This document shows, piece after piece, positions 3,751-21,589 of a stretch of DNA of 64,000 nt (position 1 is its first letter; every line of letters starts with the position of its first letter). This stretch comes from Bryobacteraceae bacterium (GTDB taxonomy: Bacteria; Acidobacteriota; Terriglobia; Bryobacterales; Bryobacteraceae). Location of the stretch: positions 62,001-126,000 of the forward strand of contig JAICJH010000005.1 of NCBI GenBank assembly GCA_025928545.1. The letters run 5' to 3'. The notes below the pieces were generated by a model. The model was not told the DNA's origin. It did not search any database and saw only the letters and a program-made list of their open reading frames with translations. Both the position numbers and the translations under genes were made by a program.

Positions 3751-4562
3751 CGCGCCGGACTTACGCCTGCCTGATTTTCGCATCGACCCTTGTTTGTGCC
3801 ACCGGCGTGAATGCCGCCAGCGTGTCCGACGAGAATTTCGAAGCCGCCGAGAAGGCACTGGCAGCGAAGCAGTGGGATACTGCGTTGGGATATTTTGAAT
3901 CTTCGCTCACGGCCGACCCGGACAGTATGCGGAACGCGAGCGAGTACCGGATGGCGACACTCCAGCGGGCACTGGCGCTTCAGCCGGCTGTGAAAGGCTT
4001 AGCTCACGAAGGCAAGCCTGAGTCTTTCGACCGTGAACTTGCTTTTTTTGAAAAGCTCACCAAAGACCATCCTCAATCGGCGAACGCGTTTCTGAATTAC
4101 GGTTTCTGTTATGTCGACAAGATCCCGGCTGCCGGCACCATTGGACAGGTGGTGCTCGCCAATAACTCTCTATCTCTTTTCACAAAGTCGATTGATCTGA
4201 AATCCAGCTGGATCGGCCTTTATACGCGCGGCAACAGCTATCTTTACTGGCCAAAAATTTTCGGCCACGGTGGCGATGCCGTTGCCGATCTGGAAAAGGC
4301 TTACGAAATTCAGAAAAAGGAACCGGTGAAGAGCCTCCATGTGCGAGTGCTGATCGCATTGGGCGATGCCTACTGGAAGACGGACGCCAAAGAGAAAGCC
4401 CGCACCATCTGGCGGGAAGGCGTCAGACAATTCCCCGATAACAAGGGCCTCAAAGAACGGATGGCCAGGGATGGCGACGATCTGGACGACTACATCGCCA
4501 CAGTGCTCGATCCGGGCAAACGAGTTGACACCGATCTGCGCGAATTGTGGAGCGGGCAGTGA
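3747..4562 (+). CDS. Exported tetratricopeptide-repeat-like protein
   Basis: A 271-residue protein. ATG at 3747 overlaps the upstream stop as ATGA, and the frame then gives a good signal peptide (MTRRTYACLIFASTLVCATG followed by VNAAS). The frame is open upstream, but this start is favoured by the overlap and signal. The mature part is helical, with TPR-like segments (AEKALAAKQWDTALGYF, NAFLNYGFCYVD, ALGDAYWKTDAKEKARTIW). It sits between VCBS/ASPIC paralogues and probably acts as a periplasmic scaffold for them. This is inference from position; the repeats are divergent. Confidence 0.75.
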   Translation: MTRRTYACLIFASTLVCATGVNAASVSDENFEAAEKALAAKQWDTALGYFESSLTADPDSMRNASEYRMATLQRALALQPAVKGLAHEGKPESFDRELAFFEKLTKDHPQSANAFLNYGFCYVDKIPAAGTIGQVVLANNSLSLFTKSIDLKSSWIGLYTRGNSYLYWPKIFGHGGDAVADLEKAYEIQKKEPVKSLHVRVLIALGDAYWKTDAKEKARTIWREGVRQFPDNKGLKERMARDGDDLDDYIATVLDPGKRVDTDLRELWSGQ

Positions 4563-6307: not shown

Positions 6308-9300
6308 TGTCGAAAGCCGGCACCATTCTGCGAGCGTCGGTAGTAGGCACAGCAAGCCTGCTCTCGTTCGGTTTTCAGGCTGGCCAGCCGGTCGCGGACC
6401 AACTCGCTCAGGCGCGAAATCTGGGGAAAGCATTCTTCGAAAACCCCACTACCCAGACCGAGTGTCTGGATCAGTTCAGGAAAGCGCTGGAGCTGTCTCC
6501 GGATTCCGTGCGGGAACGGATCAATTACGGACTGGCGCTGCTGCATGCCGGTAAAACAGACGAAGGCGTCGCGGAACTTCAGAAGGCGCAGAAGCAGGAC
6601 CCGAAGATTCCGCATACCTGGTTCAATCTCGGTATCGCTTACGAGAACGATTCCAAAACGGACGAAGCCATCGCACAGTTTCAGGGCATGTTGAAGCTGG
6701 TTCCCGATGAGGCGATTTCGCATTACAATCTGGGCGTCATGTACCAACTGAACGCCCAGGCGCCGGAAGCCATCGCGGAGTTCCAGCTTGCCGAGAAATA
6801 CAATCCCGATCTCAAGGGGCCGCATTTCAAGTTAGCGAATGCGTGGCGCGCCAGCCGTCCGGAAGACTCGGCGCGTGAGAACAAGCTCTTCGCTGCCATC
6901 AACGACCGGCAAAAGCTTACGGGCGCCACGGAAGATCTTAAATGGAGCTACTACGCCGAAATTTACGATCCGGCTGAGGCTGCTCCCGTAGTCGCCACTC
7001 AGGCGGAACTGAAGCTCTCGACCGAAAAGATATCCAGTACGCTTGCCGGCGGCACGGGCCTGATCGCCGCCGATATCGATGGCGATGGAGTGGCCGACCT
7101 GATCGCCTGGTCCGCCAACAGCGCGCAGGTTTTCAAGTCCGGAGCAAAGGCCGTAGATGCGGGATTGTCCGGTGTCAAAGACATTGTTTCCATCGCCGCT
7201 GCCGACATCAACAACGACGGTTCCTCCGACCTGGTTATCGTGACGAAGACCGGCGCTGAATTGTGGACGAACGCCGCCGGCAAGTTTTCAAAGTCAACCG
7301 TGGCGCTTCCGTCAGGCACTTACACGAGCGCAGTGTGGCTCGATTATGACCACGATTACGATCTCGATCTGTTCCTGCTGGGTGAAAAGCCGGCTCTGAT
7401 GCGGAACAACGGCGCAGCCGGTTTCAGCGATGAAACGAAGTCGTTCCCGTTTAAGCCCGGCAAAGCTCTTGCGGGCATCATGTTCGATGCAGTACCCGAC
7501 ACCGATGGCATGGATCTGGCGGTCGCGTATGCGGATCGCGCCGGAGTCCTTTATCGCGATCGCCTGAACGGGAGATACGAAGCCGAAGATCTGAACGTTG
7601 TTCCCGCGGGTGCCACGGCCATCCTTTCCGCCGATCTCGATAGCGATCGTGCGACCGACCTGGTTGTCGCGACGGCATCTTCGACGTTCATTGCCTGGAA
7701 CAAAACAACTGGTTTCGTAAAATCCGCAGACATGCCCGCCCCGGGTGGCGTCGTCGCGCTGGCGGATTTTGAAAATCGCGGCGCACTCGATATCGCGGCC
7801 GGCGGGACAATTTACCGGAACGAAGGCAAGGGTGTTTTCAAAGCAAACAAGGCCGCTCTGCCCGCGCAACCGATCGCGATGGTGAGCGCGGTTTTTGGCG
7901 GGACGCACACGTCGCTGGCGTCGATTGAAGGCTCCGATGTGGAGATAGTCGGCAATACCACCACGGGCAACGGCGCGTTAAAGATCGCCGTCACCGGAGT
8001 CAAGAATCTGAAGCTGGCATACGGCTCGAAGATCGAAGTCAAGGCCGGCAGTCACTACGAAAAACAGACCTTTCGCGGTTTGCCGTTGTTCTTCGGTCTG
8101 CCCGATCCGTACAAGGAAGCCGACACGGTTCGCATCAATTGGGCGAACGGCCTGATCCAGAACGAAGTGCATCAGCCCGCCGGCGCGCATACGTACAAGG
8201 AAGCGCAGCGGCTTTCCGGTTCCTGCCCGATGATTTTCACCTGGAACGGCGAGAATTTCAAATTCCTGACCGACGTTCTCGGCGTCGCCCCGCTGGGCGC
8301 GAGTTCGGGAGACGGCACCTACTTCCCGGTGGACCACGACGAATACGTACAGATTCCCGGCGACGCCATGGTCCCGAAGGATGGCAAGTATGAGATTCGG
8401 ATCTCCGAGGAACTCCGCGAAGTTTCTTACATCGACAAGATCCGGCTGATTGCAGTCGATCACCCGGCCAACGTGGCCATCTACACCAACGACAAGTTCA
8501 AATCGCCACCGTTCCCGGAATTCCGGTTGTTCGGCGTTACAACGCCCGTGCATCCGGTTGCAGCCCGCGACGATGCCGGGCATGATGTGCTCCCCAGGCT
8601 CCAGAAAAAGGACCAACAGTATCCGGATGCCTTTACCCGCGATTTCGCAGGTACGGCGCAGTTGCACCATCTCGATCTGGACTTCGGCAAAGCCGCTGCT
8701 TCCAACAATGCAGTGCTCGTCCTCAGCGGCTGGGTGGATTGGGCCGATGGCAGCACATTCCTGCAAAATTCCCGCGAAAGCGCCGACGGCCTGATCATGC
8801 CCTATCTTCAGGTCAAGGACGCGCAGGGCAAGTGGCAGACGGTTGTGAAAGACATGGGAATCCCCGCCGGTAAACCGAAAACCATTTCCGTCGATCTGAC
8901 GGGGAAGTTCCTTTCGGGATCCCGCGAAGTTCGCATCGTCACCAATCTCTGCGTTTACTGGGATGAGATATTTCTCAGCGAGAGCACGGCGCGACCGAAT
9001 GCGGTCCTCACCACGACCGCCGCGCGCGTCGCCGATTTACATTTCCGCGGCTTCTCGAAGCCCGTCATCGATCCGGAACGCAAGCAGCCGGAAAACTTTC
9101 TGTACGATGAAATATCGCCGGTTTCCCAGTGGAACCCGACGGCCGGCATGTACACGAAGTATGGCGACGTTCGCAAGCTCCTGGCATCGGTCGACGACAT
9201 GCCCGTGATCATGGGGTCCGGCGATGAGATGCTTCTACAGTTCGACCCCGCTGCCTTCCCCGCTCTGAAGTCCGGCTGGAAGCGCGATTTTCTTCTTCTT

Positions 9301-9510
9301 GTAGATGGCTGGGCCAAGGACGCCGATGCCAACACCGCATTCTCCACGTCTGTAGAGCCATTGCCATTTCACGCCATGAGCGCGTATCCGTATCCCTCGC
9401 ACGAGCATTATCCCGACGATGTGGCACATCGAAAGTATCAGAAGGAATACAACACCCGGCCCGCGCTGAAGCTTTTGCGCCCGCTCAAAGACAACGGAAG
9501 GACAACTTAA
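6307..9510 (+). CDS. Large exported TPR / VCBS / ASPIC-UnbV protein
   Basis: A 1067-residue multidomain protein whose ATG shares its A with the upstream TGA. After a signal-like N-terminus come TPR units (about residues 45-200, e.g. VRERINYGLALLHAGKTDEG, HTWFNLGIAYENDSKTDEA). Degenerate VCBS repeats follow (about 240-520: DIDGDGVAD, DINNDGSSD, DYDHDYDLD), then an ASPIC/UnbV-like stretch (GLPLFFGLPDPYKEAD, VRINWANG). The C-terminal ~430 residues (from SCPMIFTWNGENFKFLTDV) are a separate region I do not recognise. It joins in one chain the two protein types encoded singly upstream. The ACP gene follows after four bases. Confidence 0.85.
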   Translation: MSKAGTILRASVVGTASLLSFGFQAGQPVADQLAQARNLGKAFFENPTTQTECLDQFRKALELSPDSVRERINYGLALLHAGKTDEGVAELQKAQKQDPKIPHTWFNLGIAYENDSKTDEAIAQFQGMLKLVPDEAISHYNLGVMYQLNAQAPEAIAEFQLAEKYNPDLKGPHFKLANAWRASRPEDSARENKLFAAINDRQKLTGATEDLKWSYYAEIYDPAEAAPVVATQAELKLSTEKISSTLAGGTGLIAADIDGDGVADLIAWSANSAQVFKSGAKAVDAGLSGVKDIVSIAAADINNDGSSDLVIVTKTGAELWTNAAGKFSKSTVALPSGTYTSAVWLDYDHDYDLDLFLLGEKPALMRNNGAAGFSDETKSFPFKPGKALAGIMFDAVPDTDGMDLAVAYADRAGVLYRDRLNGRYEAEDLNVVPAGATAILSADLDSDRATDLVVATASSTFIAWNKTTGFVKSADMPAPGGVVALADFENRGALDIAAGGTIYRNEGKGVFKANKAALPAQPIAMVSAVFGGTHTSLASIEGSDVEIVGNTTTGNGALKIAVTGVKNLKLAYGSKIEVKAGSHYEKQTFRGLPLFFGLPDPYKEADTVRINWANGLIQNEVHQPAGAHTYKEAQRLSGSCPMIFTWNGENFKFLTDVLGVAPLGASSGDGTYFPVDHDEYVQIPGDAMVPKDGKYEIRISEELREVSYIDKIRLIAVDHPANVAIYTNDKFKSPPFPEFRLFGVTTPVHPVAARDDAGHDVLPRLQKKDQQYPDAFTRDFAGTAQLHHLDLDFGKAAASNNAVLVLSGWVDWADGSTFLQNSRESADGLIMPYLQVKDAQGKWQTVVKDMGIPAGKPKTISVDLTGKFLSGSREVRIVTNLCVYWDEIFLSESTARPNAVLTTTAARVADLHFRGFSKPVIDPERKQPENFLYDEISPVSQWNPTAGMYTKYGDVRKLLASVDDMPVIMGSGDEMLLQFDPAAFPALKSGWKRDFLLLVDGWAKDADANTAFSTSVEPLPFHAMSAYPYPSHEHYPDDVAHRKYQKEYNTRPALKLLRPLKDNGRTT

Positions 9511-9514
9511 GACT

Positions 9515-9796
9515 ATGCCCACAATGACGTACACAACGGATCAAATCAAAGCCGAAGTCAAAAATCTGGTCGCGCGCGTCACCGAACGCGAGCCGGATGA
9601 AATTCCGGACGATGCCCATTTCATGGAACAGCTGGGCGTGGATTCGCTGATGGCCATGGAAATCATGATCGCGGTGGATCGCAAATTCGGCATCGACATC
9701 CCTGAGGAAGAATTCAACAAGGCAATCAACGTGAACCAGTCCGTCGCGTTGGTGGAGCACTGGCTGTCTCAGCACGCCGCTTCCGCCGCATCATGA
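9515..9796 (+). CDS. Acyl carrier protein
   Basis: A 93-residue ACP. Ser44 in GVDSLMAME is the expected 4'-phosphopantetheine attachment site, followed by the acidic helix typical of ACPs (FGIDIPEEEFNKAINVNQS). A GGAAGGA ribosome-binding site lies about 11-18 bases before the ATG. The stop overlaps the next start (ATGA), tying it to the ketosynthase. It should carry the growing chain for the enzymes encoded downstream. Being cotranscribed with two ketosynthase-type genes rather than fabD/fabH argues for a dedicated ACP, not the housekeeping AcpP. Confidence 0.93.
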   Translation: MPTMTYTTDQIKAEVKNLVARVTEREPDEIPDDAHFMEQLGVDSLMAMEIMIAVDRKFGIDIPEEEFNKAINVNQSVALVEHWLSQHAASAAS

Positions 9797-11004
9797 AGCG
9801 GGTCGTGATTACAGGCATCGGCGTCGTCTCTCCCATCGGAACGGGTAAGGACGTCTTCTGGACAGGTCTGCTCGCCGGCAAGTCGGGCATCAGGCCTGTT
9901 TCTTCGTTCGATTCGACGGCTTTCTCCGCTCACATTGGCGCCGAAGTCATCGATTTCGACCCGAAGGACCATCTGGAGCGGCAGAAACCCGGGGATATGG
10001 GCCGCGCCTCTCAGATGGCGATTGGAGCGGCGCGCCACGCGCTCGCCGATGCCGGACTCGATCTCAATACCCTGAATCGCTCGCGCGTTGGCGTGAGTAT
10101 GGGGACCACGTCGGGAGAGCCGCTGTTCGTCGAATATTACAACGACGCGAAGCGGGCGGGCACAGAGCCCGCGGTTGAAGTGTTCAGCCAGTATCCGTGT
10201 CATTTGATTCCCACCCACGTTGCCATCGAGTTCGGCCTGAACGGGCCCTCGATCATGATCCCGAATGCGTGTGCGGCGGGTAATTATGCGGTCGGGTATG
10301 GTTTCGATCTGATCCGCAACGGCCGGGTAGACATGATGATCGCCGGGGGCGCCGATGCGTTTTCACGCATTCCCTACATGGGGTTTGCGCGTCTGGGAGC
10401 CATCGCGCCGGAACGTTGTCAGCCGTTCGACAAGAACCGTAAGGGCATGGTGCCGGGCGAAGGAGCCGCGGTACTGATTCTGGAACCGCTGGACGCCGCA
10501 ATTGCCCGCGGCGCCACCGTCTATGCCGAGGTTCTGGGATACGGGGCAAGCTGCGATTCGCATCACATGACCGCCGCGCATCCACAGGCGGATGGCGCAA
10601 TACGCGCCATGTCCGCCGCAATCTCCCAAAGTGGCCTGACCACAAACGATATCGATTACATCAGCGCACACGGCACCGGCACGCCCACCAACGATCGTGT
10701 GGAATCGCTTGCAGTGCGTACGCTGTTCGGGGAGCGTGCGCCTCTGGTGCCCATGAGTTCCATCAAGTCGATGCTCGGGCACACCATGGGCGCGGCCAGC
10801 GCGATAGAAGCCGTGGCCTGCACACTGGCCCTGCACACCGGCTGGATTCCGCCAACCATCAATCATGAGGAACCGGACCCCGATTGCGGCCTCGACATCG
10901 TACCGAACCATGCACGGAAGACGGATCCCAAAGTGGCTCTGAATAATGCCTATGCGTTCGGGGGTAACAATGCTTCGTTGTGCCTGGCGAGGTGCGAGGG
11001 CTAA
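9793..11004 (+). CDS. Beta-ketoacyl-ACP synthase (FabF type)
   Basis: A 403-residue condensing enzyme of the usual FabF length. The full catalytic triad is visible: Cys160 in PNACAAGN, His293 in SAHGTGTPTND and His330 in MLGHTMGAAS. The glycine-rich C-terminus (AFGGNNASL) is also conserved. It should perform decarboxylative Claisen condensation of malonyl-ACP onto an acyl-ACP in the cytoplasm. It starts in an ATGA overlap with the ACP and is followed with no gap by a second ketosynthase-like gene, the arrangement of KS-alpha/KS-beta pairs in type II polyketide, aryl polyene and similar systems. Confidence 0.93.
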   Translation: MKRVVITGIGVVSPIGTGKDVFWTGLLAGKSGIRPVSSFDSTAFSAHIGAEVIDFDPKDHLERQKPGDMGRASQMAIGAARHALADAGLDLNTLNRSRVGVSMGTTSGEPLFVEYYNDAKRAGTEPAVEVFSQYPCHLIPTHVAIEFGLNGPSIMIPNACAAGNYAVGYGFDLIRNGRVDMMIAGGADAFSRIPYMGFARLGAIAPERCQPFDKNRKGMVPGEGAAVLILEPLDAAIARGATVYAEVLGYGASCDSHHMTAAHPQADGAIRAMSAAISQSGLTTNDIDYISAHGTGTPTNDRVESLAVRTLFGERAPLVPMSSIKSMLGHTMGAASAIEAVACTLALHTGWIPPTINHEEPDPDCGLDIVPNHARKTDPKVALNNAYAFGGNNASLCLARCEG

Positions 11005-12210
11005 ATGACTCCCCGGATTGTAGTGACAGGAACGGGCGTCATCGCCTCTATCGGCGCCGGTGTATCCGCTTTCGAGGAAGCGTTGTGGTCGGGCGCCACG
11101 GGAGTAAAGGACAGCACGCGCGTGGCCGGCCACACCTTCGCCGACGCCGGTGAATTCGATGCCAAGCCGTGGCTCGGCAATAAGGGTGTCCGTGTGTTGG
11201 ATCGGGGAACGCGCCTGCTTTGCATTGCGGCGCAGATGGCTCTGACTGAAACGGGTCTGTCTCAGGACGCGGTGGAAGTGGGCGACGCCGATCTGGGGAT
11301 GATCTGCGGCACAATGTTCGGCGGCATCCACAGCATCGCCGGATTCGACTGGATCGGGATCACCGACGGACCCGCCCTGGTCAGCCCGATGGATTTTCCC
11401 AACACCGTTATTAACGCGCCGGCGGGCCAGGCTGCGATCAAGCACAAACTTCGCGGAGTGAACTCAACCATCTGCTCCGGCCTCGCCTCCGGGCTTTACG
11501 CCATCGACTACGCGGCGGAATTCCTTCGCCTGGGGCGGGCAAAGTATCTGCTGGCCGGCGGCATGGAAGAGGTGTGGGAAGAGGCGGCGGAAGGGTTTCG
11601 GCGCATGAACCTGACTTCTCCCAAAGGAACACCGCGCCCATTTGGAGAGAAACGCGACGGCACGGCAGCAGGTGAAGGCGCCGGTCTCTGGATGCTGGAA
11701 TCCGAAGCAACGGCCAAATCCCGGGGCGCTACGCCTATCCTCGAAATTCTTGGTTTTGGCGCATCGCACGATGCCGCCTCGGGCACCGGCTATCAGATGT
11801 CGGGTAAAGGCGCGACCCTGGCCATGGAACGCGCGCTGGAGTATTCGGGCATCGGACCGGATCAGGTAGCCTGCGTGATTGCGAGCGCTAATGGCAATCC
11901 GGCGGGCGACGAAATGGAAGCCCGCGCTCTAACCAACGTGTTCGGTGCGTGGACGTCTTCCCTGCCCGTCTGCGCTCCCAAAGCGGCGCTGGGTGAGTGC
12001 ATGGGTGGTTCCGGGGCGCTGTGCGCAATCGTTGGCGGCCTGTCGCTGTTGCGGCATGAAATTCCCCCGACTGCCGGATTTACGGGAACGGATACCAACC
12101 TCAAACTCTCGCTTCAGCCTCAAAAAATCTCCGGCGAATATGCCATGATCAACGCATTCGGCTGTGACGGCAACAACTCTTCCCTGGTGATCCGCTTATG
12201 GAAAAGCTGA
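11005..12210 (+). CDS. Ketosynthase-like protein lacking both catalytic histidines (chain-length-factor-like)
   Basis: A 401-residue thiolase-fold homologue of the preceding KS, beginning directly after its stop. By motif comparison Cys157 is kept (STICSGLASG), but the two His positions are replaced: HGTGT becomes NGNPAG (Asn296) and LGHTMGA becomes LGECMGG (Glu331). The C-terminal FGCDGNNSSL is retained. Without the histidines decarboxylative condensation is not expected, so I infer a KS-beta/chain-length-factor partner of the preceding enzyme. Classical chain length factors lose the Cys instead, which makes this version unusual; a Cys-dependent acyl-transfer role is possible. Confidence 0.85.
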   Translation: MTPRIVVTGTGVIASIGAGVSAFEEALWSGATGVKDSTRVAGHTFADAGEFDAKPWLGNKGVRVLDRGTRLLCIAAQMALTETGLSQDAVEVGDADLGMICGTMFGGIHSIAGFDWIGITDGPALVSPMDFPNTVINAPAGQAAIKHKLRGVNSTICSGLASGLYAIDYAAEFLRLGRAKYLLAGGMEEVWEEAAEGFRRMNLTSPKGTPRPFGEKRDGTAAGEGAGLWMLESEATAKSRGATPILEILGFGASHDAASGTGYQMSGKGATLAMERALEYSGIGPDQVACVIASANGNPAGDEMEARALTNVFGAWTSSLPVCAPKAALGECMGGSGALCAIVGGLSLLRHEIPPTAGFTGTDTNLKLSLQPQKISGEYAMINAFGCDGNNSSLVIRLWKS

Positions 12211-13430
12211 CCGCGACAGAGATGGCCAAGGCAACTGAAGAAGCTGCCCCGGTTGAAATCGGGCCCACCGATCTGCTGCCGCGACTGAAAGACAACGGCT
12301 ACGACGCGGAACGTGTCGGACGTCGCCGCGCATGGGTCGAGAATAAGACCGGTACCGAACTGCCTCACATCGGAGGTCAGACCTGGGACCCCGAACTGAC
12401 GCGCGGCAACATCGAAAATCCGATCGGGGTAGCGCAGGTTCCGCTTGGCGTCGCGGGGCCGGTGTTAATCCACGGCCAGAATGCGAATGGCCTGTTCTAT
12501 GTTCCGATGGCCACCACGGAAGGCGCATTGCTCCGCAGTTACGAGCGGGGCATGGTGGCGCTGACGAAATCCGGCGGCGTGCAGACCGCGGTGCTGGCGG
12601 ATGAAAATCAGACCGCTCCGGCTTTTCATTTTGACGATGTCAGAACGGCCGCGGCTTTCCCCGCCTGGATCGAATCGAAGCTGCCGGAATTGCGGGAAGT
12701 GGTTGGCGCCACAACGCGCCATGGTGTTTTAACCGGACTCCGCTGCTACCAGACCGGCCGCCAGGTCATCGTCAACTTCGGATTCCGGACCGGCGACGCT
12801 CAGGGCATGAACATGATCGTCCGCGCGACGGACGCGGTGTGCCGTTGGGTCCAGGCCAACTATTCGATTGCGAATTACTTTCTGTTCAGCGGACTCTGCG
12901 GTGAGAAACGCGCCAGCGGTTTCCTGATGACCCGCGGAAAAGGAAAACGCGTAACGGCGGGCGCACTGCTGCGGCATGACGTTCTTCGCCTTTATCTCCA
13001 CGTGACCGCGGATCAGATGTTCCGCGTCTGGCAGTCCACCGTGGTCGGCAATTTTCAGGCAGGATCCGTCGGCTACCACGGTCACGCCGCGAACGGGTTG
13101 ACGGCAATTTTTATCGCAACAGGTCAGGATGTCGCGAATGTAGTGAATTCTTCCTGCGCGATGACTGTGTTCGAACCGCATCCCGACGGCTTGTATGTCT
13201 CGACCACGCTCTCCGCGCTTTCGGTGGCAACGGTGGGCGGCGGCACCGGCCTGCCCACACCGCGCGAAGCCCTCGGCATCATGGATTGCGTCGGAACCGG
13301 CAAAGCAGGTAAACTGGCGGAAATTGTGGCAGCGGCCATTCTGGGCGGAGAGATCTCCATGGGCGCGGCAATTTCATCGGGAGAATTTGTGGGAGCGCAC
13401 GAGCGCTACGGAAGGAACCGGCCAACTTGA
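12198..13430 (+). CDS. HMG-CoA reductase family protein (class I-like)
   Basis: A 410-residue protein with the class I HMG-CoA reductase motifs in order: ENPIGVAQVPLGVAGP, ATTEG (Glu108), GDAQGMNM (nucleotide site), EKRASG (Lys237), GQDVANV (Asp311), GGGTGLPT and a C-terminal GAHERYGRNR (His401). These correspond to the catalytic Glu, Lys, Asp and His of known enzymes, so it should reduce a thioester to an alcohol with NAD(P)H. The start overlaps the upstream gene by 13 bases; an internal ATG at 12222 is an alternative. No other mevalonate gene is present, so the substrate may be an acyl thioester made by this operon rather than HMG-CoA. Confidence 0.87.
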   Translation: MEKLTATEMAKATEEAAPVEIGPTDLLPRLKDNGYDAERVGRRRAWVENKTGTELPHIGGQTWDPELTRGNIENPIGVAQVPLGVAGPVLIHGQNANGLFYVPMATTEGALLRSYERGMVALTKSGGVQTAVLADENQTAPAFHFDDVRTAAAFPAWIESKLPELREVVGATTRHGVLTGLRCYQTGRQVIVNFGFRTGDAQGMNMIVRATDAVCRWVQANYSIANYFLFSGLCGEKRASGFLMTRGKGKRVTAGALLRHDVLRLYLHVTADQMFRVWQSTVVGNFQAGSVGYHGHAANGLTAIFIATGQDVANVVNSSCAMTVFEPHPDGLYVSTTLSALSVATVGGGTGLPTPREALGIMDCVGTGKAGKLAEIVAAAILGGEISMGAAISSGEFVGAHERYGRNRPT

Positions 13431-14143
13431 AAGTCGCGTTAGTCACAGGGGGAGGCCGGGGGATCGGGCGGGCGATCGTGGAGGAATTCCACGGGGCCGG
13501 ATACAAGGTGGCCTTTACCTACAGTTCGAATGACGACGCGGCCAACGCGGTGGTAGAGCACTGCGGACCCGACGTGATGGCTATCAAAGCCGACGTGCGC
13601 GACTTCGCACGTGCCGGGCAGGTGGTGGCCGAGACCATCGCAAAATTCGGGCCGATCACCGCGCTGATCAACAATGCCGGAATCAAGAAAGATCTTCCGC
13701 TGATGAAGATGGACGCCGATTCCTGGCGCGACGTGGTGGATACGAATCTCAACGGCACCTTCAACTATTCGCGCAATGCAGTCAGCGGAATGCTGCGTAC
13801 CGGCGGCGCCATCCTGAATGTCACCAGCGTGAGCGGGGTGATTGGCATGGCCGGGCAGACGAATTACAGCGCGTCGAAAGCCGGTGTGATCGGCTTTACC
13901 AAAGCTCTGGCGAAAGAAATCGCACGCTTCGGCGTCCGGGTGAATGCAATCGCGCCGGGCTTTATCGATACGGACATGACGTCGGCCATCGACGAAGCCA
14001 CTCGCAAAAAGCTGTACAGCCAGATTCCCTCGGGTCAGCCCGGCAGCGCCGCGGATGTCGCAAAGCTGGTTTTATATCTGGCGAGCGACGAAGCCAAATA
14101 CGTGACGGGACAGATCTGGAACATCGACGGCGGCCTGACCTGA
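13427..14143 (+). CDS. SDR-family 3-oxoacyl-ACP reductase (FabG-like)
   Basis: A 238-residue classical short-chain dehydrogenase. It shows the TGGGRGIG nucleotide-binding loop at the N-terminus, NNAG, the catalytic Ser region (NVTSVSGVIG), Tyr147 and Lys151 in YSASK, and the closing IDGG. It probably reduces the beta-keto group after each condensation with NADPH. Translation starts at TTG in a TTGA overlap with the HMG-CoA-reductase-like gene. No dehydratase (FabZ/FabA type) or enoyl reductase is found in the operon, so those steps would have to come from elsewhere or be skipped. Confidence 0.9.
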   Translation: MKVALVTGGGRGIGRAIVEEFHGAGYKVAFTYSSNDDAANAVVEHCGPDVMAIKADVRDFARAGQVVAETIAKFGPITALINNAGIKKDLPLMKMDADSWRDVVDTNLNGTFNYSRNAVSGMLRTGGAILNVTSVSGVIGMAGQTNYSASKAGVIGFTKALAKEIARFGVRVNAIAPGFIDTDMTSAIDEATRKKLYSQIPSGQPGSAADVAKLVLYLASDEAKYVTGQIWNIDGGLT

Positions 14144-14156
14144 CCGGGAGCAATAC

Positions 14157-15731
14157 GTGTCGCAGAACTTTACCATCTTCGGGCGTGACTATCCACGGCG
14201 TTACGATGCGATCGTAATCGGGGCGGGGATCGGCGGGTTATTCTGCGCCAACATGCTGGCGAATGGCGGCATGAAGGTACTGCTGCTGGAGCGCCACTAC
14301 ATGCTGGGCGGTTTCTGCTCCACGTTCCGGCGCAAGGGCTTTATCTTCGATGCGGCAACGCATTTTTATCCTCTGCTCGGCAATCCTTCGACTCTCACGG
14401 GCAAGATCGTAAAAGATCTACAGCTTCCCACCGAGTGGGTCAGGATGGAGCCGGTCGATCAGTTCCACCTGCCGGGTGAGCCGGTCTTCACCGTGCCAGG
14501 CGAGTTCGGCCCTTATGTGGAGCGGCTGAAAACATGGTTTCCGGACGAGAGCGCGAACATTGACGCTTATTTCAACGAGCTGCGGCAGGCCTACATGTAC
14601 GGGCTGCTTTACTATTTTCGCGGGGTCGCCAACGATCAGGTGGAAAAGCTCGAGAAGTACTCGATGGTCGACAAGCTCAACCAGCATTTCCGCGATCCGA
14701 GGCTGAAAACAATCCTGATGGGCGATGCGCCGCACTGGGGTTCGCAACCCGGCCGGACGTCCTATGTTTTCGATGCGATGCTGCGGCTGTCGTACTTTCT
14801 CGGCAACTATTACCCGAAAGGAAGCTCGCAGAAATTCGCCGACGATCTGGGCCGCGTCTTCACCGATAAGGGCGGCAAGATCCTCAAGTGCGCCGATGTT
14901 CAGCGCATTGTCACTGAGAATGGCAAATGCAGGGGCGTCAGGCTGCAAACCATTTCGAAACGCGAGCCGGAGACCTTCGAGTTTGAAGCCCCGGTTATCG
15001 TCTCCAATGCCGACGCGCTGCACACGTATCGCGATCTGATCGGCGACGAGGACCGCGATCCGTGGCTGCTCGATCACATACGGAAGCAAAAGCCGACGTT
15101 CGCCTGTAGCCTCACTCATATCGGCCTGCGCGGCATGGACCCGGAAAAACTGGCGGCGGCGGAAGGCTATTACTGGGGCGAGTGCGACCCTTCCGACATC
15201 ATGAAAAATGTCTTCAAGATCTTCGTGCCGACGCACTTCGATCCCGACATCGCGCCGCCGGGATGCCAGATTGTGATCACACAACGGCCGTCTCCGGTGC
15301 AGTTCGATTCTGTAACGGACTGGCCGGCCCACAAAGCGGAACTTGAGGCGAAGACGATGCAGCGCCTGCGGGAGGAATTACCCGGCATCGACGATCACAT
15401 TGTGGTAAAGTCCAGTGCAAGCGCCATGACTTCGTTTCGCTTCACTAATAATCTGGAGGGCGGGATGCTCGGCTGGGAGATGTCTCCCGGACAGCTGGGC
15501 AATAACCGCCTGCCGGTCTACACCCCCATCGAGAATCTTTATCTCACCGGGCACTGGACCCAGCCAGGAGGTGGAATCACGCCCGTGATCGTCTCGGCCC
15601 AGCGCGTAGCGAAGATTATCCTGACCGGGCGGGAGGAAGGAAAAGATGTGGCGGCTTCCTACTTCACGTTCAATGCGGCGGCCGGCGGCGCAGCGGCCGC
15701 GAACGGAAAAACAGCGGACGTTCGTTCATGA
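14157..15731 (+). CDS. FAD-dependent oxidoreductase, phytoene desaturase (CrtI)/carotene isomerase-like
   Basis: A 524-residue flavoprotein with GTG start and a GGGAG ribosome-binding site. The N-terminal dinucleotide-binding motif (IVIGAGIGGLFCANML) is followed by ERHYMLGGFCSTF and FDAATHFYP, as in the CrtI/retinol saturase/CrtISO group. The C-terminal FAD motif is LYLTGHWTQPGGGITPV. Family members desaturate, isomerise or saturate polyene chains. Next to a KS pair and ACP it could act on an acyl or polyene intermediate. CrtI-like genes also occur beside FAS genes in reported candidate ladderane loci, but that link is from memory and only an analogy. Confidence 0.85.
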   Translation: MSQNFTIFGRDYPRRYDAIVIGAGIGGLFCANMLANGGMKVLLLERHYMLGGFCSTFRRKGFIFDAATHFYPLLGNPSTLTGKIVKDLQLPTEWVRMEPVDQFHLPGEPVFTVPGEFGPYVERLKTWFPDESANIDAYFNELRQAYMYGLLYYFRGVANDQVEKLEKYSMVDKLNQHFRDPRLKTILMGDAPHWGSQPGRTSYVFDAMLRLSYFLGNYYPKGSSQKFADDLGRVFTDKGGKILKCADVQRIVTENGKCRGVRLQTISKREPETFEFEAPVIVSNADALHTYRDLIGDEDRDPWLLDHIRKQKPTFACSLTHIGLRGMDPEKLAAAEGYYWGECDPSDIMKNVFKIFVPTHFDPDIAPPGCQIVITQRPSPVQFDSVTDWPAHKAELEAKTMQRLREELPGIDDHIVVKSSASAMTSFRFTNNLEGGMLGWEMSPGQLGNNRLPVYTPIENLYLTGHWTQPGGGITPVIVSAQRVAKIILTGREEGKDVAASYFTFNAAAGGAAAANGKTADVRS

Positions 15732-16333
15732 AAGCTCTCGATTCGGACCAGCAGCGAGCCGTACTTGATGGCGCGATGCAGTTGTTTGGCCAATACGATC
15801 TGAAGGATATTTCCCTCGATAAACTTACGCGCCTGACAGGCATTCCGGCTTTCGATATTCTGCGTGAGTACCATTCGAGCGACAATATTCTGCGGGCGGT
15901 TCTTGAGCGCGAACTGGAACTCATGGCCGCCGCGGCCCAGGCGCCGGAACTCCGGATGCCGGGTGAAACGCTGGGCGATGAACTTCATGTGCTGGCGGGC
16001 GTCATCCTCGATCAATACCGCAAACGAAGTAAATTCCTTTCCAAGATTCTCAATGAGGCGATGCACAATTCTCAGGTGGGAGCGCTGTTCTACAGCACTT
16101 TCATTGTCCAGGGACGGCTGCTGTTCAGCGAGTTCCTGAAGGTACGGAAACAGCGGGACGAACTGCGCAACGAGGTCGATGTGGAAGCCGCGGGCGCAAT
16201 GTTTCTGGCCTCGCTGACCGGAATGTTTATCATGTACGAATTCTTCGGCGGCAACAAGGTGGAGCCGCTGGACGACGAGCGCATGCTGACTCAGATGTGC
16301 GATACTTTCCTGCGCGGAGTCATAAAGAGATGA
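15728..16333 (+). CDS. TetR/AcrR-family transcriptional regulator
   Basis: A 201-residue helical protein. Residues about 8-55 form a TetR-type helix-turn-helix domain (AVLDGAMQLFGQYDLKDISLDKLTRLTGI, then YHSSDNILRAVLERE), followed by a ligand-binding-type helical domain ending FLRGVIKR. It overlaps the oxidoreductase gene as ATGA and is itself overlapped by the next gene, so it is an internal member of the operon. I infer a local repressor that responds to an acyl-type ligand. No operator palindrome could be assigned. Confidence 0.82.
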   Translation: MKALDSDQQRAVLDGAMQLFGQYDLKDISLDKLTRLTGIPAFDILREYHSSDNILRAVLERELELMAAAAQAPELRMPGETLGDELHVLAGVILDQYRKRSKFLSKILNEAMHNSQVGALFYSTFIVQGRLLFSEFLKVRKQRDELRNEVDVEAAGAMFLASLTGMFIMYEFFGGNKVEPLDDERMLTQMCDTFLRGVIKR

Positions 16334-17895
16334 CGGTCGGGATAGCGGGGCTGGAAGGTCCCCTTGCCCGCGCAACGAAAGCTGAGCTGGAGCGGCGCGG
16401 TCACCAGGTTGTTGCAGGCGCGGCGGAGTGCGTTGTTTACTTTCCCGGCGAATTGCCCGCACTCAGTGCACTGGCCGCGGACTCGCAGGTAAACAGACTG
16501 GTGCTGCGCAGTCACGGCTATGCCTACGGGACCAACGCGAAGAATCCTGGCATGATGACCGAGGAGCGGATCTCTTTGCTGCCGCCCGCCGACCCCGCCC
16601 AGCGCTGGCTTCATGCCGAAGCAATTGCGGCCACGCATCCGAACGCAGCCATGATCCGCATGGCCAACGTGACCGATCCCGGCGAGGGCGATTTGCTGGT
16701 TGCCAAACTGGCGCGACGCTCCGCCACAAAAATTCTGGGACGGAATCCGAACGTTCAGTTCATCTCAGTCGAGGATGCCGCCAGGGCGCTGGCGGCCGCC
16801 TGTGAATCGACGGCCACCGGCTTATTCAATGCAGCCGGCGGCGGCGCATTGCCGCTCGTCGATGCCTTTCGCGCAGCAGGGACGCGGCAAATCCATGCGC
16901 CCGAAGTACGCAGTCTCGATGAGTTGCGCTACAACTGGACGTTATCGAGCGAGCGCGCTCAAAAAGAATTGGGCTGGGCTCCCGAAAAATCGTCCGTCGA
17001 AGCTCTCAAGGCATTTCTCGCCACCAAGCACGGAGCCCGGCCGGAGCGTCTGCGCGGCCCCTACGACGATTGGGGACTCGATCTCGATTACATCCGCGCC
17101 TGGGGCGCATGGTTCGGCTTTCTGCGCAACATCTACTGGCGCATCGAACACGAAGGGATGGAGAATATCCCGGCAACGGGACGAGCCCTGTTCGTTTCCA
17201 ACCACCGCGGTTTCATGCCGCTCGATGCGGTGATGCACCTGTCGCTGATTTTTACGCATCGTCAGCGCGTGCCGCGCTTCCTCATCATTCCTTCGCTGCT
17301 GCGTACGCCCTTCATGTGCAACTTCCTGACCAAGCTCGGCGGCGTGGTTGCCAGCCAGGAGAACGCGGCGCGGCTGCTCGAACAGGAGAGCCTGGTGGGG
17401 CTGTTTCCCGAAGGCATCCGCGGAACGTTCACGCCCTATAAGCGCACTTACAAACTGCGCGATTTTTCACGCAGCGAATTCGCCACGCTGGCGGTGCGCC
17501 ATCAGGCTCCCGTGATACCCACGGCAGTGGTGGGACATGCCGAGATATTTCCGATTCTGGGGCGAATCGATTCCAGCTACATCGTGAAGGAGGTTGGCTG
17601 GCCTTATCTTCCGATTGCGCCGCCGTTTCCGCTGGCGCCGATTCCCCTGCCTTCCAAATGGCACGTGCGCGTGCTGAAGCCGGTCTCGCTCGAAGGGCTG
17701 AAGCCATCCGATGCCGAAAACGCCCGCCTGATGGTGGACTATAGCCGGCACATCCAGAGCATCATTCAGAAGAATGTCGATGACATGGTTTCGCGCCGCA
17801 AGAGCCTGGTGAGAGGCCGTTTTCTGGATGGAACATCACCTTCGATACCGCCTTTTAAACGCTCGGCTGCCGCAATATCGGCTAATTCCGCGTAA
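16330..17895 (+). CDS. SDR/epimerase-like domain fused to PlsC-type acyltransferase
   Basis: A 521-residue two-domain protein; the ATG at 16330 is chosen for its ATGA overlap, although the frame is open upstream. Residues about 1-220 resemble an extended NAD-dependent epimerase/dehydratase (NVTD, SVEDAARAL, LGWAPEKS at the end), but the N-terminal glycine motif is weak (GIAGLEGPLA). Residues about 255-500 are a lysophospholipid-acyltransferase domain: NHRGFMPLD gives His292 and Asp299 (H-X6-D spacing), and GLFPEGIRG is the FPEG motif. The acyltransferase half probably transfers the operon's acyl product to a hydroxyl acceptor at the membrane. A basic, Pro-rich tail follows. Confidence 0.85.
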   Translation: MTVGIAGLEGPLARATKAELERRGHQVVAGAAECVVYFPGELPALSALAADSQVNRLVLRSHGYAYGTNAKNPGMMTEERISLLPPADPAQRWLHAEAIAATHPNAAMIRMANVTDPGEGDLLVAKLARRSATKILGRNPNVQFISVEDAARALAAACESTATGLFNAAGGGALPLVDAFRAAGTRQIHAPEVRSLDELRYNWTLSSERAQKELGWAPEKSSVEALKAFLATKHGARPERLRGPYDDWGLDLDYIRAWGAWFGFLRNIYWRIEHEGMENIPATGRALFVSNHRGFMPLDAVMHLSLIFTHRQRVPRFLIIPSLLRTPFMCNFLTKLGGVVASQENAARLLEQESLVGLFPEGIRGTFTPYKRTYKLRDFSRSEFATLAVRHQAPVIPTAVVGHAEIFPILGRIDSSYIVKEVGWPYLPIAPPFPLAPIPLPSKWHVRVLKPVSLEGLKPSDAENARLMVDYSRHIQSIIQKNVDDMVSRRKSLVRGRFLDGTSPSIPPFKRSAAAISANSA

Positions 17896-17919: not shown

Positions 17920-19110
17920 ATGACAAATCAAAATGACAAGGAAATGGTCGCCGTAGTTCTGTCCGGCGGCGGGGCCTATGCCGCTTACGAAATCGGCGCC
18001 ATGCGGGCGATTCTTGAGGGCAAGACAGTCGCAACTTCGTATGAGCCGCTGGTTCCGGATATCTATACCGGCACTTCCGCGGGGGCGCTGAATGCGGCCC
18101 TGATGACTGCAAACTCGGTGGGAGACGAGCACCAGGCCGTCGAGAAAGTGGCGCGCATCTGGCTGGATGAACTGGCAGGCAGCACCGCGATCACCGATAA
18201 TGGCGTCCTGCATCTGCGGCTCAATCCGATGTGCCTGATGAACGTGGTCGGCGGCAATCCCTGGGAGCCGCTGAAGCAACTGGCCGGCGATGCCGCCACC
18301 ATTTCGGAATCCATGTGGCAGCACGTTTCGGAGTTTCTGCACTCCAAAGGAACGCTCGCGTCGCGCGCGGTGGAACTGCTGGATCTCTCCTCGATGATCT
18401 GCAATTTTCCACTGGAGGCCACGCTTCGGCGCGTCCTCGATCTGAAGCACATCCGGGAGTCCAAAGCCATCCTGCGGATTGCCGCCACGAACTGGACGAC
18501 GGGGCAACTACAGACGTTCTGCAATGCCGACTTCGACGGACCCCACGGCTATGCCGCCATCGAAGCTTCGGCCGCCATACCGGGAATCTTTTCCCCCGTG
18601 GTGTGCGGCGAAGGGACATACGTGGATGGCGGGCTGATCATGAATACGCCCATGAAGCCCGCGATCGATTGCGGCGCCACTCAGATCCATATCATTTACG
18701 TGGATCCGGATATCGCGGCCATCCCGATCGGCAAACTGCAAAGTACGTTCGCGATGTTCGACCGCTCGCTTGCGATTACGTTTGCGGCGCGCACCAATCA
18801 GGATATCGAGAACGCCAGGTGGATCAATCACGGGCTGGCCCTGGCGCGCAGCAAGAAGCCGCACGAAGAGCATACGCATCATGAGAAGAAGACGCGGAAT
18901 CGCACCGCGGCCAAAATTCACGCTCATGCCGAAAGCGACGAACCGCACCGGCAATTGACCGTGCACCGTTACCATCCGAAAAAGGATTTAGGCGGCGGCG
19001 TAGGTCTTCTGGATTTCAGCCGGCGCGCAATTCAGGGGCTGATCGACCGCGGGTACGAAGAAACGATGCGCCACGATTGTCTGGAAAGCGGCTGCGTTCT
19101 GCCGGTCTGA
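17920..19110 (+). CDS. Patatin-like phospholipase
   Basis: A 396-residue patatin-fold protein. It has the oxyanion-hole motif LSGGGAYAAYEIGAM, the nucleophile motif GTSAG (Ser53) and DGG (Asp236), the Ser-Asp dyad of this family. It therefore probably hydrolyses acyl esters of lipids. It lies 24 bases after the SDR-acyltransferase gene on the same strand and may belong to the operon as an editing or turnover enzyme. The C-terminal ~80 residues are His- and charge-rich (EEHTHHEKKTRN) and are not part of the catalytic fold. No signal peptide is seen. Confidence 0.88.
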   Translation: MTNQNDKEMVAVVLSGGGAYAAYEIGAMRAILEGKTVATSYEPLVPDIYTGTSAGALNAALMTANSVGDEHQAVEKVARIWLDELAGSTAITDNGVLHLRLNPMCLMNVVGGNPWEPLKQLAGDAATISESMWQHVSEFLHSKGTLASRAVELLDLSSMICNFPLEATLRRVLDLKHIRESKAILRIAATNWTTGQLQTFCNADFDGPHGYAAIEASAAIPGIFSPVVCGEGTYVDGGLIMNTPMKPAIDCGATQIHIIYVDPDIAAIPIGKLQSTFAMFDRSLAITFAARTNQDIENARWINHGLALARSKKPHEEHTHHEKKTRNRTAAKIHAHAESDEPHRQLTVHRYHPKKDLGGGVGLLDFSRRAIQGLIDRGYEETMRHDCLESGCVLPV

Positions 19111-19158: not shown

Positions 19159-19878
19159 TTACCAGCTCGGCAAAGTCGGCGCATCCGGCGGAAAGTCTTC
19201 CATAGCGCGAATGGCGGCAATCTGACCCTGATGGCGCTCCTCGTGAACGATCACGATCCGGAGGAGCTGCCGGATGTTATTCCTGCCCATGATCGGATGG
19301 TCGATAACGGGAACTTCCACATTCTGCGGCAGAGGCCCACGCAGGAGCTTGTCGGTTTCTTCGAGCGAGGCAGCCAGATCGGCGCTGAGCTCATGGACAG
19401 GCCGGCCAGCGCGCGGCTCGGACGATGTTGGATTCACCGCCGAAACCAACGGGTAACGGATCGCCATTTCGCGGACTGCGGAAGGCACAAAATAATTGAA
19501 TATCCGGGTGGGAATCTCAAGGGCCTGCATGACTTCGCGCGGAACGCCGGCGAACGAGGAATCGACCTCGCGAAGACTGATCTTGTCCGACAGATTGCGC
19601 CCTTCCCGAGCCATGCGAATCAGCCGGTGAAACTGTTCCCTGTAGAGAAATTCGGAACGGAGCAAATGATCGGCAATCTGGGAAATCGACCACTTGCCGG
19701 GTGCGGGAGACCAGAGGGCCTGTTCGGTGGTGAATCCTGCCAGCGCGGCCAGGGTGTTCTCGCGAACCATTCTCAGACGATCCACCTCTGCAATCAGGTA
19801 GCACGGAGCAGCCGTGGCAGACTGCGCCAGGCTCGCTATTGCCGCTCCGATGCCTCGCAGCGATTTCTCTTCGTTCAT
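19159..19878 (-). CDS. DinB-family protein
   Basis: A 239-residue protein of the DinB/YfiT-like four-helix-bundle group. Conserved His residues that usually bind a metal are present (ISQIADHLLRSE near the middle, IVHEERHQGQI near the end), as is the typical LAALAGFTTEQALWSPAPGKWS lead-in. The ATG at 19878 overlaps the stop of the upstream gene as ATGA, so the two are probably co-translated; an ATG three codons earlier is less likely. Proteins of this fold often act as thiol-dependent S-transferases, but the substrate cannot be told here. Confidence 0.82.
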   Translation of the reverse strand: MNEEKSLRGIGAAIASLAQSATAAPCYLIAEVDRLRMVRENTLAALAGFTTEQALWSPAPGKWSISQIADHLLRSEFLYREQFHRLIRMAREGRNLSDKISLREVDSSFAGVPREVMQALEIPTRIFNYFVPSAVREMAIRYPLVSAVNPTSSEPRAGRPVHELSADLAASLEETDKLLRGPLPQNVEVPVIDHPIMGRNNIRQLLRIVIVHEERHQGQIAAIRAMEDFPPDAPTLPSW

Positions 19879-20966
19879 GCAGCACACTCGCCGGGATTGC
19901 GATCGCCGATAGTCAGACGCGCCAGTTCTCCCTGTGTCCGATAGGTGTAAAGCGCGGGTATTTTGTTTCGCAGCTTCAGGCCGGGGAAAATATCGTCCAG
20001 CGCTTCACGGCACGGGGCCGTCACCCACTGATTCCACACCAGGCCATCGCCATCCAAACGGGGCCGGACATAAGCCTCTGTGTACTGCGAATCTTCCGGC
20101 GCCATGTGACGCCACGCCATCAGCGCGGAAATCACGCCGTTGGTGAATTCGTCCCTTAGCTTTAATTCCTGGCAAATCTCCATGAGCGACCGGGCGATGT
20201 CGGGGTGACAGAGATTGACGAGAGTCACCGCCCAGACGAGTCCAGCGAGCACGTTGCGGCGGTCTTCGAAATTGGTGGTTTCCTCCATTGCACTCCGCAT
20301 CATTCTCTTGCGGGCGCCGGAAAGCGGCGCGAAATTCGAAGGGACAAAGTACAGGCCGCGACCCACGCCGTGCCAGAAAAGCACGCGCAGCCGGTGATCC
20401 AGCGCTTCCATCGCGGCGCTCACCGGACCCAGAAGATTCGGGTACAGGCAGCGCACGACCAGGCCGAGCGGCTCCATGGTGGCGTCTTCCCAACCTGGAC
20501 GGCAATTGGCGGCGCAGGTGTCGACGAAGCGCCGTACGGTACTGTCGATCTCACTTCGTGAAGGATTCGGAGTCAGCCCCTGAAATAGTTTTTCGGCGAA
20601 AGCCGTTCCCATCCCGGCATGCAGTGGAACGAGCGATGTTTCCGGGATAAATGCCGCATCTCCGTCGGTGAGAAGACCCTTCACCGCAACGCTGGAGGCC
20701 AGCCCGGCCATGTGTCCGGCGCCCTCCGTCACCCAGATCGAGTGGAACCTTTCTCCGGGAGCCGGGCGCGAAAGAATCTGGTTGGCCGGCGGGTGGCCTT
20801 CGGGCAGCTTTAATTCGCGGTCGGCATACTGAAACAGACGAAACGATTCAATCTTGTTGTCCAGTTCCTGCCAGTCGCAAAGAAAGCCGGCCGGAGCCAG
20901 CGTCCGCATCAGACGCGCCGATTGCTGGGTCCATTCGAAACCGGTCCGTAAGGCGTCGCGCATCAT
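19875..20966 (-). CDS. DUF1702/UnbL-like protein (tentative)
   Basis: About 363 residues from the ATG at 20966; an in-frame ATG at 21209 would add 81 residues that include three copies of FPELLSSK encoded by a DNA tandem repeat. I prefer the shorter form because the longer one leaves only 23 bases to the divergent gene. Glycine-rich segments recur (TEGAGHMAGL, LHAGMGTAFAEKL, WHGVGRGLYFVPS, LAGLVWAVTLVN), a rhythm I associate from memory with DUF1702 (UnbL of enediyne clusters). That assignment is tentative. No catalytic motif is seen. Its stop overlaps the DinB gene. Confidence 0.6.
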   Translation of the reverse strand: MMRDALRTGFEWTQQSARLMRTLAPAGFLCDWQELDNKIESFRLFQYADRELKLPEGHPPANQILSRPAPGERFHSIWVTEGAGHMAGLASSVAVKGLLTDGDAAFIPETSLVPLHAGMGTAFAEKLFQGLTPNPSRSEIDSTVRRFVDTCAANCRPGWEDATMEPLGLVVRCLYPNLLGPVSAAMEALDHRLRVLFWHGVGRGLYFVPSNFAPLSGARKRMMRSAMEETTNFEDRRNVLAGLVWAVTLVNLCHPDIARSLMEICQELKLRDEFTNGVISALMAWRHMAPEDSQYTEAYVRPRLDGDGLVWNQWVTAPCREALDDIFPGLKLRNKIPALYTYRTQGELARLTIGDRNPGECAA

Positions 20967-20969
20967 TTG

Positions 20970-21041
20970 GAACTTCGAGCTTAGCAACTCGGGGAACTTC
21001 GAGCTTAGCAACTCGGGGAACTTCGAGCTTAGCAACTCGGG
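20970..21041. repeat. Perfect 24-bp tandem repeat, three copies
   Basis: Three identical 24-bp units lie head to tail (20970-20993, 20994-21017, 21018-21041), with a 4-base start of a fourth unit after them. They sit just upstream of, or inside, the 5' end of the minus-strand gene. Read on the minus strand the unit is eight whole codons giving FPELLSSK. Units contain the palindromic core AGCTT/AAGCT-like sequence. The position between divergent genes also fits a regulatory or slippage-prone element. Confidence 0.9.
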
Positions 21042-21232
21042 GAACGCGTAACAACTGCGGCCGCTGGCGCACACAGTTGTTCCCTGACGACTGCCGGGGA
21101 AGAGCGCACCCGGCCGCGATGAGCCGAAAACCATCTCGGGGACTTTAGCAGCGAACCGCCTGCATACGGGCGGTATTATGGTTTGGTCCGTCGGCCTGAT
21201 TCGAAACACGGCAACGGCGGGGAGGATTCTCT

Positions 21233-21568: not shown

Positions 21569-21589
21569 CCGGTTCCGCGGTGGAACCGG
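21569..21589. other. Inverted repeat (8-bp stem, 5-nt loop) at the UbiB gene start
   Basis: CCGGTTCC at 21569-21576 pairs perfectly with GGAACCGG at 21582-21589 across GCGGT. The candidate GTG start at 21580 lies across the loop and the second arm, while the alternative ATG at 21601 is just beyond. No T-run follows, so an intrinsic terminator is unlikely. It could be an mRNA hairpin that limits translation or a dyad operator. Confidence 0.5.

Follow-up and report, generated by a model that had tools for sequence, protein, structure and literature searches.

The eight-gene set and its conservation

This work deals with a run of eight genes at positions 9515-17895 of a 64,000-nucleotide stretch of contig JAICJH010000005.1 (hereafter, the window, meaning the whole stretch), which belongs to the genome of a Bryobacteraceae bacterium (GCA_025928545.1; 6.7 Mb, 171 contigs, 95% complete). 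A previous sequence-only reading had described these genes as coupled and assigned them to an undescribed type II lipid or polyketide pathway with an HMG-CoA-reductase-type (HMGR-family) enzyme. Profile searches recovered all eight open reading frames (ORFs) with matches to the proposed families, those of the TetR-like gene being weak. The set is as follows:

9515-9796, + strand: acyl carrier protein (ACP), phosphopantetheine serine in VDSL (PF00550)
9793-11004, + strand: KS1, a ketosynthase (KS) with Cys-His-His that groups with anammox-type KS (PF00109/PF02801)
11005-12210, + strand: KS2, a KS-like partner with Leu/Ser/Glu in place of Cys/His/His, chain-length-factor-like
12198-13430, + strand: HMGR-family reductase (PF00368, 349 bits)
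13427-14143, + strand: FabG-like ketoreductase (KR; family match)
14157-15731, + strand: CrtI/phytoene-desaturase-like FAD protein (TIGR02734, 160 bits, below the cut-off of 238)
15728-16333, + strand: TetR-family-like regulator (weak matches only, all below cut-offs)
16297-17895, + strand: short-chain dehydrogenase/reductase (SDR)-like domain fused to a PlsC-type acyltransferase (SDR-PlsC; PF01553)

Since neighbouring genes overlap or have 0-13 bases between them, the eight genes are likely to form a single operon; the HMGR-family gene itself overlaps KS2 by 13 bases. For SDR-PlsC, an internal ATG at 16330 is a likelier start than 16297. The window protein gave no match to an SDR family, and its relative in locus L064 (loci and genomes are labelled L and G) gave a weak Epimerase match; the H...D and PEG motifs of PlsC are retained in 19/19 sequences. 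The genes from 65 to 27984 were scanned, a few short ORFs excepted, and they gave no match to a dehydratase or an ammonia lyase, in agreement with the sequence-only reading.

The conservation of this neighbourhood was evaluated in two collections. A phylum search covered 396 Acidobacteriota genomes, our own included, in which cluster-type HMGR genomes were defined by identity (51% or more). In addition, a scan of named genomes was made, of which the best 80 loci of a capped list were kept; L052-L084 and L089 are of the cluster type, and the remaining loci, at 46% identity or below, belong to another family. The 44 resulting HMGR rows represent 42 distinct places (L033 and L034 are identical to L069 and L074), and L033, L034 and L041 (a short contig) were excluded from the HMGR tree and from the neighbourhood, KS-residue and linkage counts. 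Linkage was counted on the same strand and within 10 kb of the HMGR gene, requiring at least 3.5 kb of flank on the relevant side. Under these conditions KS1 and KS2 were each found near a cluster-type HMGR in 26/30 loci, the CrtI-like gene in 29/32 and SDR-PlsC in 21/32. None of these genes was present near the four canonical HMGR loci (0/4), nor did cluster genes appear near the members of the other, sister HMGR family described below (KS1 0/44, CrtI 0/45).

The same association was observed at the level of genomes. An HMGR-family match was present in 68 of the 396 Acidobacteriota genomes, 11 of them of cluster type, and a CrtI match at E<=1e-90 was present in 12, including all 11 with a cluster-type HMGR. 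With our own genome excluded, 10/10 HMGR-positive genomes have CrtI and 10/11 CrtI-positive genomes have HMGR, G008 being the only one with CrtI and no cluster HMGR; G368 and G172 carry HMGR and CrtI on separate contigs. With our own genome counted, the probability of this co-occurrence by chance is about 1.5e-20, a figure that presupposes independent genomes, a condition that does not hold here. CrtI was used for the reverse comparison instead of KS2 because ordinary FabF proteins score on KS2 as high as the relatives of KS2.

The distribution of the cluster in Acidobacteriota is patchy, and the two other sampled members of the family to which the window belongs do not carry it. Among the best 80 loci, the nearest HMGR relatives (76-77% identity) come from metagenome-assembled genomes (MAGs) named Acidobacteriia, Terriglobia or Bryobacterales. 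The neighbourhood is kept in Acidobacteriota loci of several class names, it is complete in one Poribacteria-labelled and one Planctomycetota-labelled locus, and it is partial in one Zixibacteria-labelled and one Latescibacterota-labelled locus. The presence of the cluster in L082, a MAG labelled Singulisphaera (Planctomycetota), may reflect inter-phylum transfer or misbinning.

A further set of genes accompanies the cluster in part of the loci. Neighbouring genes were picked by homology ranking in 41 loci, the window included, a sample to which the following counts refer. KR was found in 11 loci and adjoins HMGR in 10 (window included), the remaining case, L061, being a contig-edge fragment located elsewhere; TetR was found in four, one of them the window. 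Proteins with FG-GAP/ASPIC domains occur within or near the cluster in 23/41 loci, a halogenase/lycopene-cyclase-like FAD protein in 10/41 and an oxygenase of the RPE65/lignostilbene-dioxygenase type in 8/41; some loci carry genes for sigma and anti-sigma factors, or for response regulators and kinases. In L062 the oxygenase (7553-9001) and the halogenase-like FAD protein (5799-7562) both lie beside the cluster. The conserved core thus consists of ACP, KS, the KS-like protein, HMGR, CrtI-like and, less often, SDR-PlsC. The sequence-only reading had named the lack of a conserved neighbourhood in relatives as grounds for refutation; the neighbourhood proved to be conserved. Eight families are too broad a definition of it, given the low frequency of KR and TetR.

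A separate clade of HMGR-family proteins

HMGR-family enzymes normally serve the synthesis of cholesterol-type precursors, and they are a textbook drug-target family. With 294 bits, the protein of the window does not reach the equivalog cut-off of TIGR00533 (442 bits). In the HMGR tree, from which G172 and G226 (cluster-type by identity) were left out, three supported groups were obtained: a canonical group with the human sequence, the archaeal 6hr7 and four acidobacterial sequences; a scattered second family (<=48% identity), thinned to 27 of its 53 rows; and the clade of the cluster proteins, with 41 rows and a support of 100/99. The 49% match of G051 (locus L040) falls in the second family and not in the cluster clade.

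The residues of these proteins were compared using human numbering. The catalytic E559, K691 and D767 are kept in all 44 cluster rows and H866 in 43/44, the exception (L075) being cut off. On the other hand, the positions R590, S684, D690 and K735, which we take to bind HMG, are changed: R590 is replaced by T, I, V or L and S684 by F, L or I in 44/44 rows, E stands at D690 in 44/44, and L036 is the only row with K735 (1/44). K692 is R, K or H in the cluster rows. All of these positions are retained in the canonical rows (6/6). Catalysis would therefore be kept while the clamp for HMG has become largely hydrophobic, which suggests that the substrate is a different, greasier thioester than HMG-CoA. 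Compared with class I HMG-CoA reductase, then, the window protein shares the PF00368 family and the catalytic E/K/D/H, and differs in the altered R590, S684, D690 and K735 and in that no mevalonate context was found for it.

The second family (L085-L131 except L089, and also L040, L042-L045, L047 and L049) is 43-48% identical to the window protein and is found in Chloroflexota, Pseudomonadota, Acidobacteriota and others. Its 53 rows all retain R590 and D690-K691-K692, none retains K735, and S684 is mostly Glu. None of the gene families in its neighbourhood is shared by more than 7 of these 53 loci. This family, too, may act on a substrate other than HMG-CoA.

An obvious question is whether the window gene could be an ordinary HMGR of the mevalonate pathway that lies by chance beside lipid genes. 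Its strong match to PF00368 would fit such a role, as would the fact that it is the sole HMGR found in its genome. However, no HMG-CoA synthase match was obtained in that genome by a search that was positive in 4/14 control genomes, and IspH is present, from which a mevalonate role appears unlikely. Of the 34 named cluster-type loci, 27 were taken for a search of their genomes, and 23 gave no HMG-CoA synthase match; the other four fit the mevalonate role. One cluster genome (G410/G368) additionally carries a canonical HMGR (L048), and a few of these organisms may possess a mevalonate pathway beside the cluster. Taken together with the changed pocket, the separate clade and the lack of cluster genes at canonical HMGR loci, these data make a mevalonate role of the window HMGR very unlikely, and we give a chance juxtaposition next to no weight.

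Another explanation is that the protein no longer reduces anything and is instead a partner whose task is to hold an acyl thioester or to give the KS complex its shape. Its tight coupling to KS2, and to KS genes in other loci, would be explained in this way. Nevertheless, the four catalytic residues are conserved throughout the clade, unlike the decayed catalytic set of KS2, and we regard a non-catalytic role as improbable.

Ketosynthases and the candidate ladderane cluster of anammox bacteria

The sequence-only reading had described an active KS and a KS-like partner, and the relatives bear this out. After rows under 330 residues were dropped, KS1 presented Cys-His-His in 27/27 rows, while among the KS2 rows the Cys is lost in 29/30, the first His in 30/30, and the second His is Glu in 30/30. 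KS1 passes the cut-off of the NCBIfam FabF subfamily NF005589 (405 vs 387 bits), so that automatic annotation would name it FabF. Its best matches in the PDB are 9s5h_B (493 bits), 6kxd (370 bits), which we take to be the KS of the ishigamide polyene, and ordinary FabF (314 bits). KS1 is 38-40% identical to the two other FabF proteins of its own genome, and the KS tree places the cluster KS together with the anammox-type KS and 6kxd, apart from FabF, including those two (100/99), with 6kxd and one FabF on long branches. A housekeeping FabF origin of KS1 was therefore rejected. For KS1 as for HMGR, the two genes for which trees were built, grouping with housekeeping counterparts was not observed.

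To which known system the cluster is closest was judged from these relatives. For the candidate ladderane cluster kuste3603-3608, the composition and numbering order given in table 2 of PMC4790861 match ACP, FabZ, KS, KS-like, CrtI and radical SAM; this candidate cluster is also treated in PMC2649909. When 392 Planctomycetota genomes were searched with 9s5h_C, 22 full-length matches (81-94%) were obtained, and around four of them (L157-L160) ACP, FabZ, KS, KS-like and CrtI lie in a row; in L157, the only one that was Pfam-scanned, a B12-binding radical SAM gene follows (4098-5558). Because of these matches and this gene order, we infer that the KS pair of 9s5h is of anammox origin. Identities between the window proteins and those of L157-L160 are 52-53% for KS1, 33-35% for KS2 (to the KS-like protein) and 32-36% for CrtI. 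The orthology of KS2 with the anammox KS-like protein is weakly supported.

The two clusters have in common, in the same order, an ACP, an active KS, an inactive KS-like partner and a CrtI-like gene. They differ in that KS2 and CrtI are separated in the window by an HMGR-family gene and KR, with SDR-PlsC placed after CrtI, whereas the anammox cluster contains FabZ and a B12 radical SAM gene, for neither of which the scanned genes of the window gave a match (65-27984 in the case of radical SAM). In 31 of 34 anammox-type genomes, which we selected from the 9s5h_C search, no HMGR match was found. Two others narrowly exceeded the cut-off with weak matches of 30 and 32 bits (profile positions 73-349), and one had a match below it; the weak matches L161 and L162 may be distant relatives or chance. 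In one relative of the window cluster, L071, FabZ is located beside ACP-KS1-KS2-HMGR-CrtI, and this locus looks intermediate.

The sequence-only reading had likened the genes to aryl polyene or ladderane loci; of the two, the ladderane likeness stands as the nearer one. Highly reducing type II polyketide synthases (PKS) of the ishigamide kind and aryl polyene clusters share with the window a KS, an inactive KS partner, an ACP and a KR. Nevertheless, KS1 matches 9s5h_B better than 6kxd, and the window adds HMGR and CrtI-like genes and has neither dehydratases nor an ammonia lyase among its scanned genes. For this last reason, membership in the aryl polyene group was rejected. KS-CLF (chain-length factor) pairs have been reported in Acidobacteria in PMC10132072, whose main text has no HMG or ladderane. 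A search of the open PMC literature, limited to titles and the beginnings of abstracts and with subscription journals and preprints outside its scope, found no description of such a cluster among the papers listed.

Proposed pathway and surrounding genes

We lean slightly towards the following interpretation: the cluster would encode a type II, ladderane-related pathway in which a neofunctionalised HMGR frees the chain from the ACP in the form of an alcohol, which is then acylated. KS1 and the inactive KS2 would pair as a KS/chain-length-factor-like heterodimer and extend the chain on the dedicated ACP. KR would reduce the chain, and dehydration, if any, would probably be provided in trans by the housekeeping FabZ, of which one was found in the genome. 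The CrtI-like flavoprotein would dehydrogenate or otherwise modify the chain, introducing or moving double bonds. The HMGR-family protein would then use NAD(P)H to reduce the acyl thioester by four electrons and so release a primary alcohol, and SDR-PlsC would acylate this alcohol to an ester lipid. The reduction to an alcohol proposed in the sequence-only reading gains indirect support from the intact catalytic residues and the changed pocket; the order of the steps, the chain and the product are our inference. The usual substrate of the family, HMG-CoA, is a 3-hydroxyacyl thioester too, and a 1,3-diol unit is present in mevalonate. For this reason, and because KR comes directly after HMGR, an attractive sub-hypothesis by analogy is that the substrate is a 3-hydroxyacyl-ACP supplied by KR and that a 1,3-diol is released.

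Within the same ladderane-related pathway, the HMGR-family enzyme could also work in reverse or half-way, giving an aldehyde, or oxidising an alcohol or aldehyde to an acyl thioester that primes the KS pair. The retained catalytic residues fit both directions, and the gene is not the last of the operon, being placed after KS2 and before CrtI. The acyltransferase fusion near 21/32 loci, on the contrary, points to the formation of an acceptor hydroxyl, and this variant seems unlikely to us. More specific about the chain, and in that sense overlapping with alcohol release, is the proposal of a polyene processed as a carotenoid or retinoid would be, with CrtI-like dehydrogenation, an HMGR-made alcohol, a PlsC-made ester and, in part of the loci, cleavage or isomerisation of the RPE65 type. 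It draws on the recurrence of the RPE65/lignostilbene-dioxygenase family (8/41) and the halogenase/lycopene-cyclase-like protein (10/41), and on the second-best PDB match of KS1 being 6kxd. In the window, neither type of gene was matched among those scanned and the cluster has no dehydratase. We consider this proposal somewhat unlikely.

As for the anammox CrtI-like protein, it has been proposed to introduce or move double bonds (PMC2649909); anammox proteins failed to replace CrtI in lycopene production, and ladderane ring formation had no enzymatic precedent as of 2016, both according to PMC4790861.

Several observations weigh against the release of an acylated alcohol by a ladderane-related machinery. 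Near the cluster-type HMGR, SDR-PlsC was not found in 11/32 loci, CrtI in 3/32 and KS1 in 4/30, and most of the relatives are MAGs, in which misbinning is possible. Since KR lies beside HMGR in only 10/41 loci and tblastn with our own FabZ as query detected a relative in a single locus, L071, several enzymes must act in trans. The link with the anammox proteins is uneven: cluster KS1 and anammox KS join to the exclusion of 6kxd only at 85/65; the best PDB match of KS2, 9s5h_C, leads ordinary FabF by only 227 vs 208 bits; on the anammox KS-like protein KS1 and KS2 score about equally (250/241, 247/223, 240/230 and 216/227 bits for L157-L160); and the PDB matches of ACP do not single out anammox ACPs. 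Regarding the enzymes, the argument of the changed pocket depends on an alignment and on assumed residue roles, and no biochemical evidence was found of any HMGR-family enzyme acting on acyl-ACP. PlsC-type acyltransferases usually have an H-x4-D motif, and the HRGxxPxD found here is spaced longer. Finally, as the genome is 95% complete, HMG-CoA synthase could still be encoded in it, and matches to this enzyme over the Pfam cut-off were obtained in 4/27 cluster genomes (three partial, one weak).

The genes on both sides of the set are:

65-2038, + strand: CRTAC1-type FG-GAP/ASPIC-UnbV protein, in the upstream portion of the run (PF13517, PF07593)
2035-3750, + strand: FG-GAP/ASPIC-UnbV protein (Pfam)
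3153-4562, + strand: ORF with TPR repeats only in its C-terminal part (residues about 374-439), the true start being probably after 3750
4547-6307, + strand: FG-GAP/ASPIC-UnbV protein (Pfam)
6307-9510, + strand: TPR plus FG-GAP protein, 5 bases upstream of ACP (Pfam; also ahead of ACP in L052-L055)
17920-19110, + strand: patatin-like lipase, adjoining gene
19875-21209, - strand: 444-aa protein with no Pfam match, recurrent near clusters, with a distant profile similarity to DUF1702
21580-23265, + strand: ABC1/UbiB-type atypical kinase (Pfam)

Three FG-GAP/ASPIC-UnbV genes, the TPR-repeat ORF and the TPR/FG-GAP gene make up a same-strand run from 65 to 9510. Because the last of them stops 5 bases before ACP, and such a gene also precedes ACP in L052-L055, the transcription unit is probably larger than eight genes and extends upstream. 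Promoter-like sites were not above shuffled sequence (5 vs 6.8), and terminator-like sites numbered 28 vs 21.9 (sd 5.2) in shuffles. On the downstream side, the ABC1/UbiB-type kinase is also near the cluster in eight relatives and the 444-aa family is present in 7/41 loci; a 528-aa ORF at 23799-25385, downstream of the kinase gene, gave no Pfam match at E<=10.

UnbV/ASPIC and DUF1702 proteins are associated with enediynes. In the window, such features are limited to the ASPIC-UnbV domains upstream and to the DUF1702 similarity, which is solely profile-profile, and no enediyne-type type I PKS (PKSE) was found among the genes scanned. The 444-aa family compared with five Acidobacteriota DUF1702 proteins gave a profile-profile probability of 91.6 (0.3 for the control against the HMGR alignment), and HMMER gave no DUF1702 match in our own genome; a relationship of the two families is a lead only. 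In an acidobacterial genome (L139:1501-3718) a DUF1702 gene adjoins a ketosynthase gene.

In a broader sense, and more tentatively than for the pathway, these clusters could stand for ladderane-related lipids of a class not recognised so far, occurring in Acidobacteriota and, scattered, in other phyla, for which an HMGR rebuilt for ACP-bound chains releases an alcohol or 1,3-diol and polyene-processing partners (CrtI-like, RPE65-like, halogenase-like) take part in many loci. We know of no HMGR-family enzyme outside HMG/mevalonate chemistry; if the interpretation is true, this would be, to our knowledge, the first. A second cluster family that shares the KS pair and the CrtI-like gene, with HMGR replacing FabZ and radical SAM, helps to separate the common core from the genes specific to the ladderane ring. 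Furthermore, if this HMGR reduces acyl-ACP, a textbook drug-target family would gain a new class of substrates, and a common soil phylum would offer a testable route to lipid alcohols.

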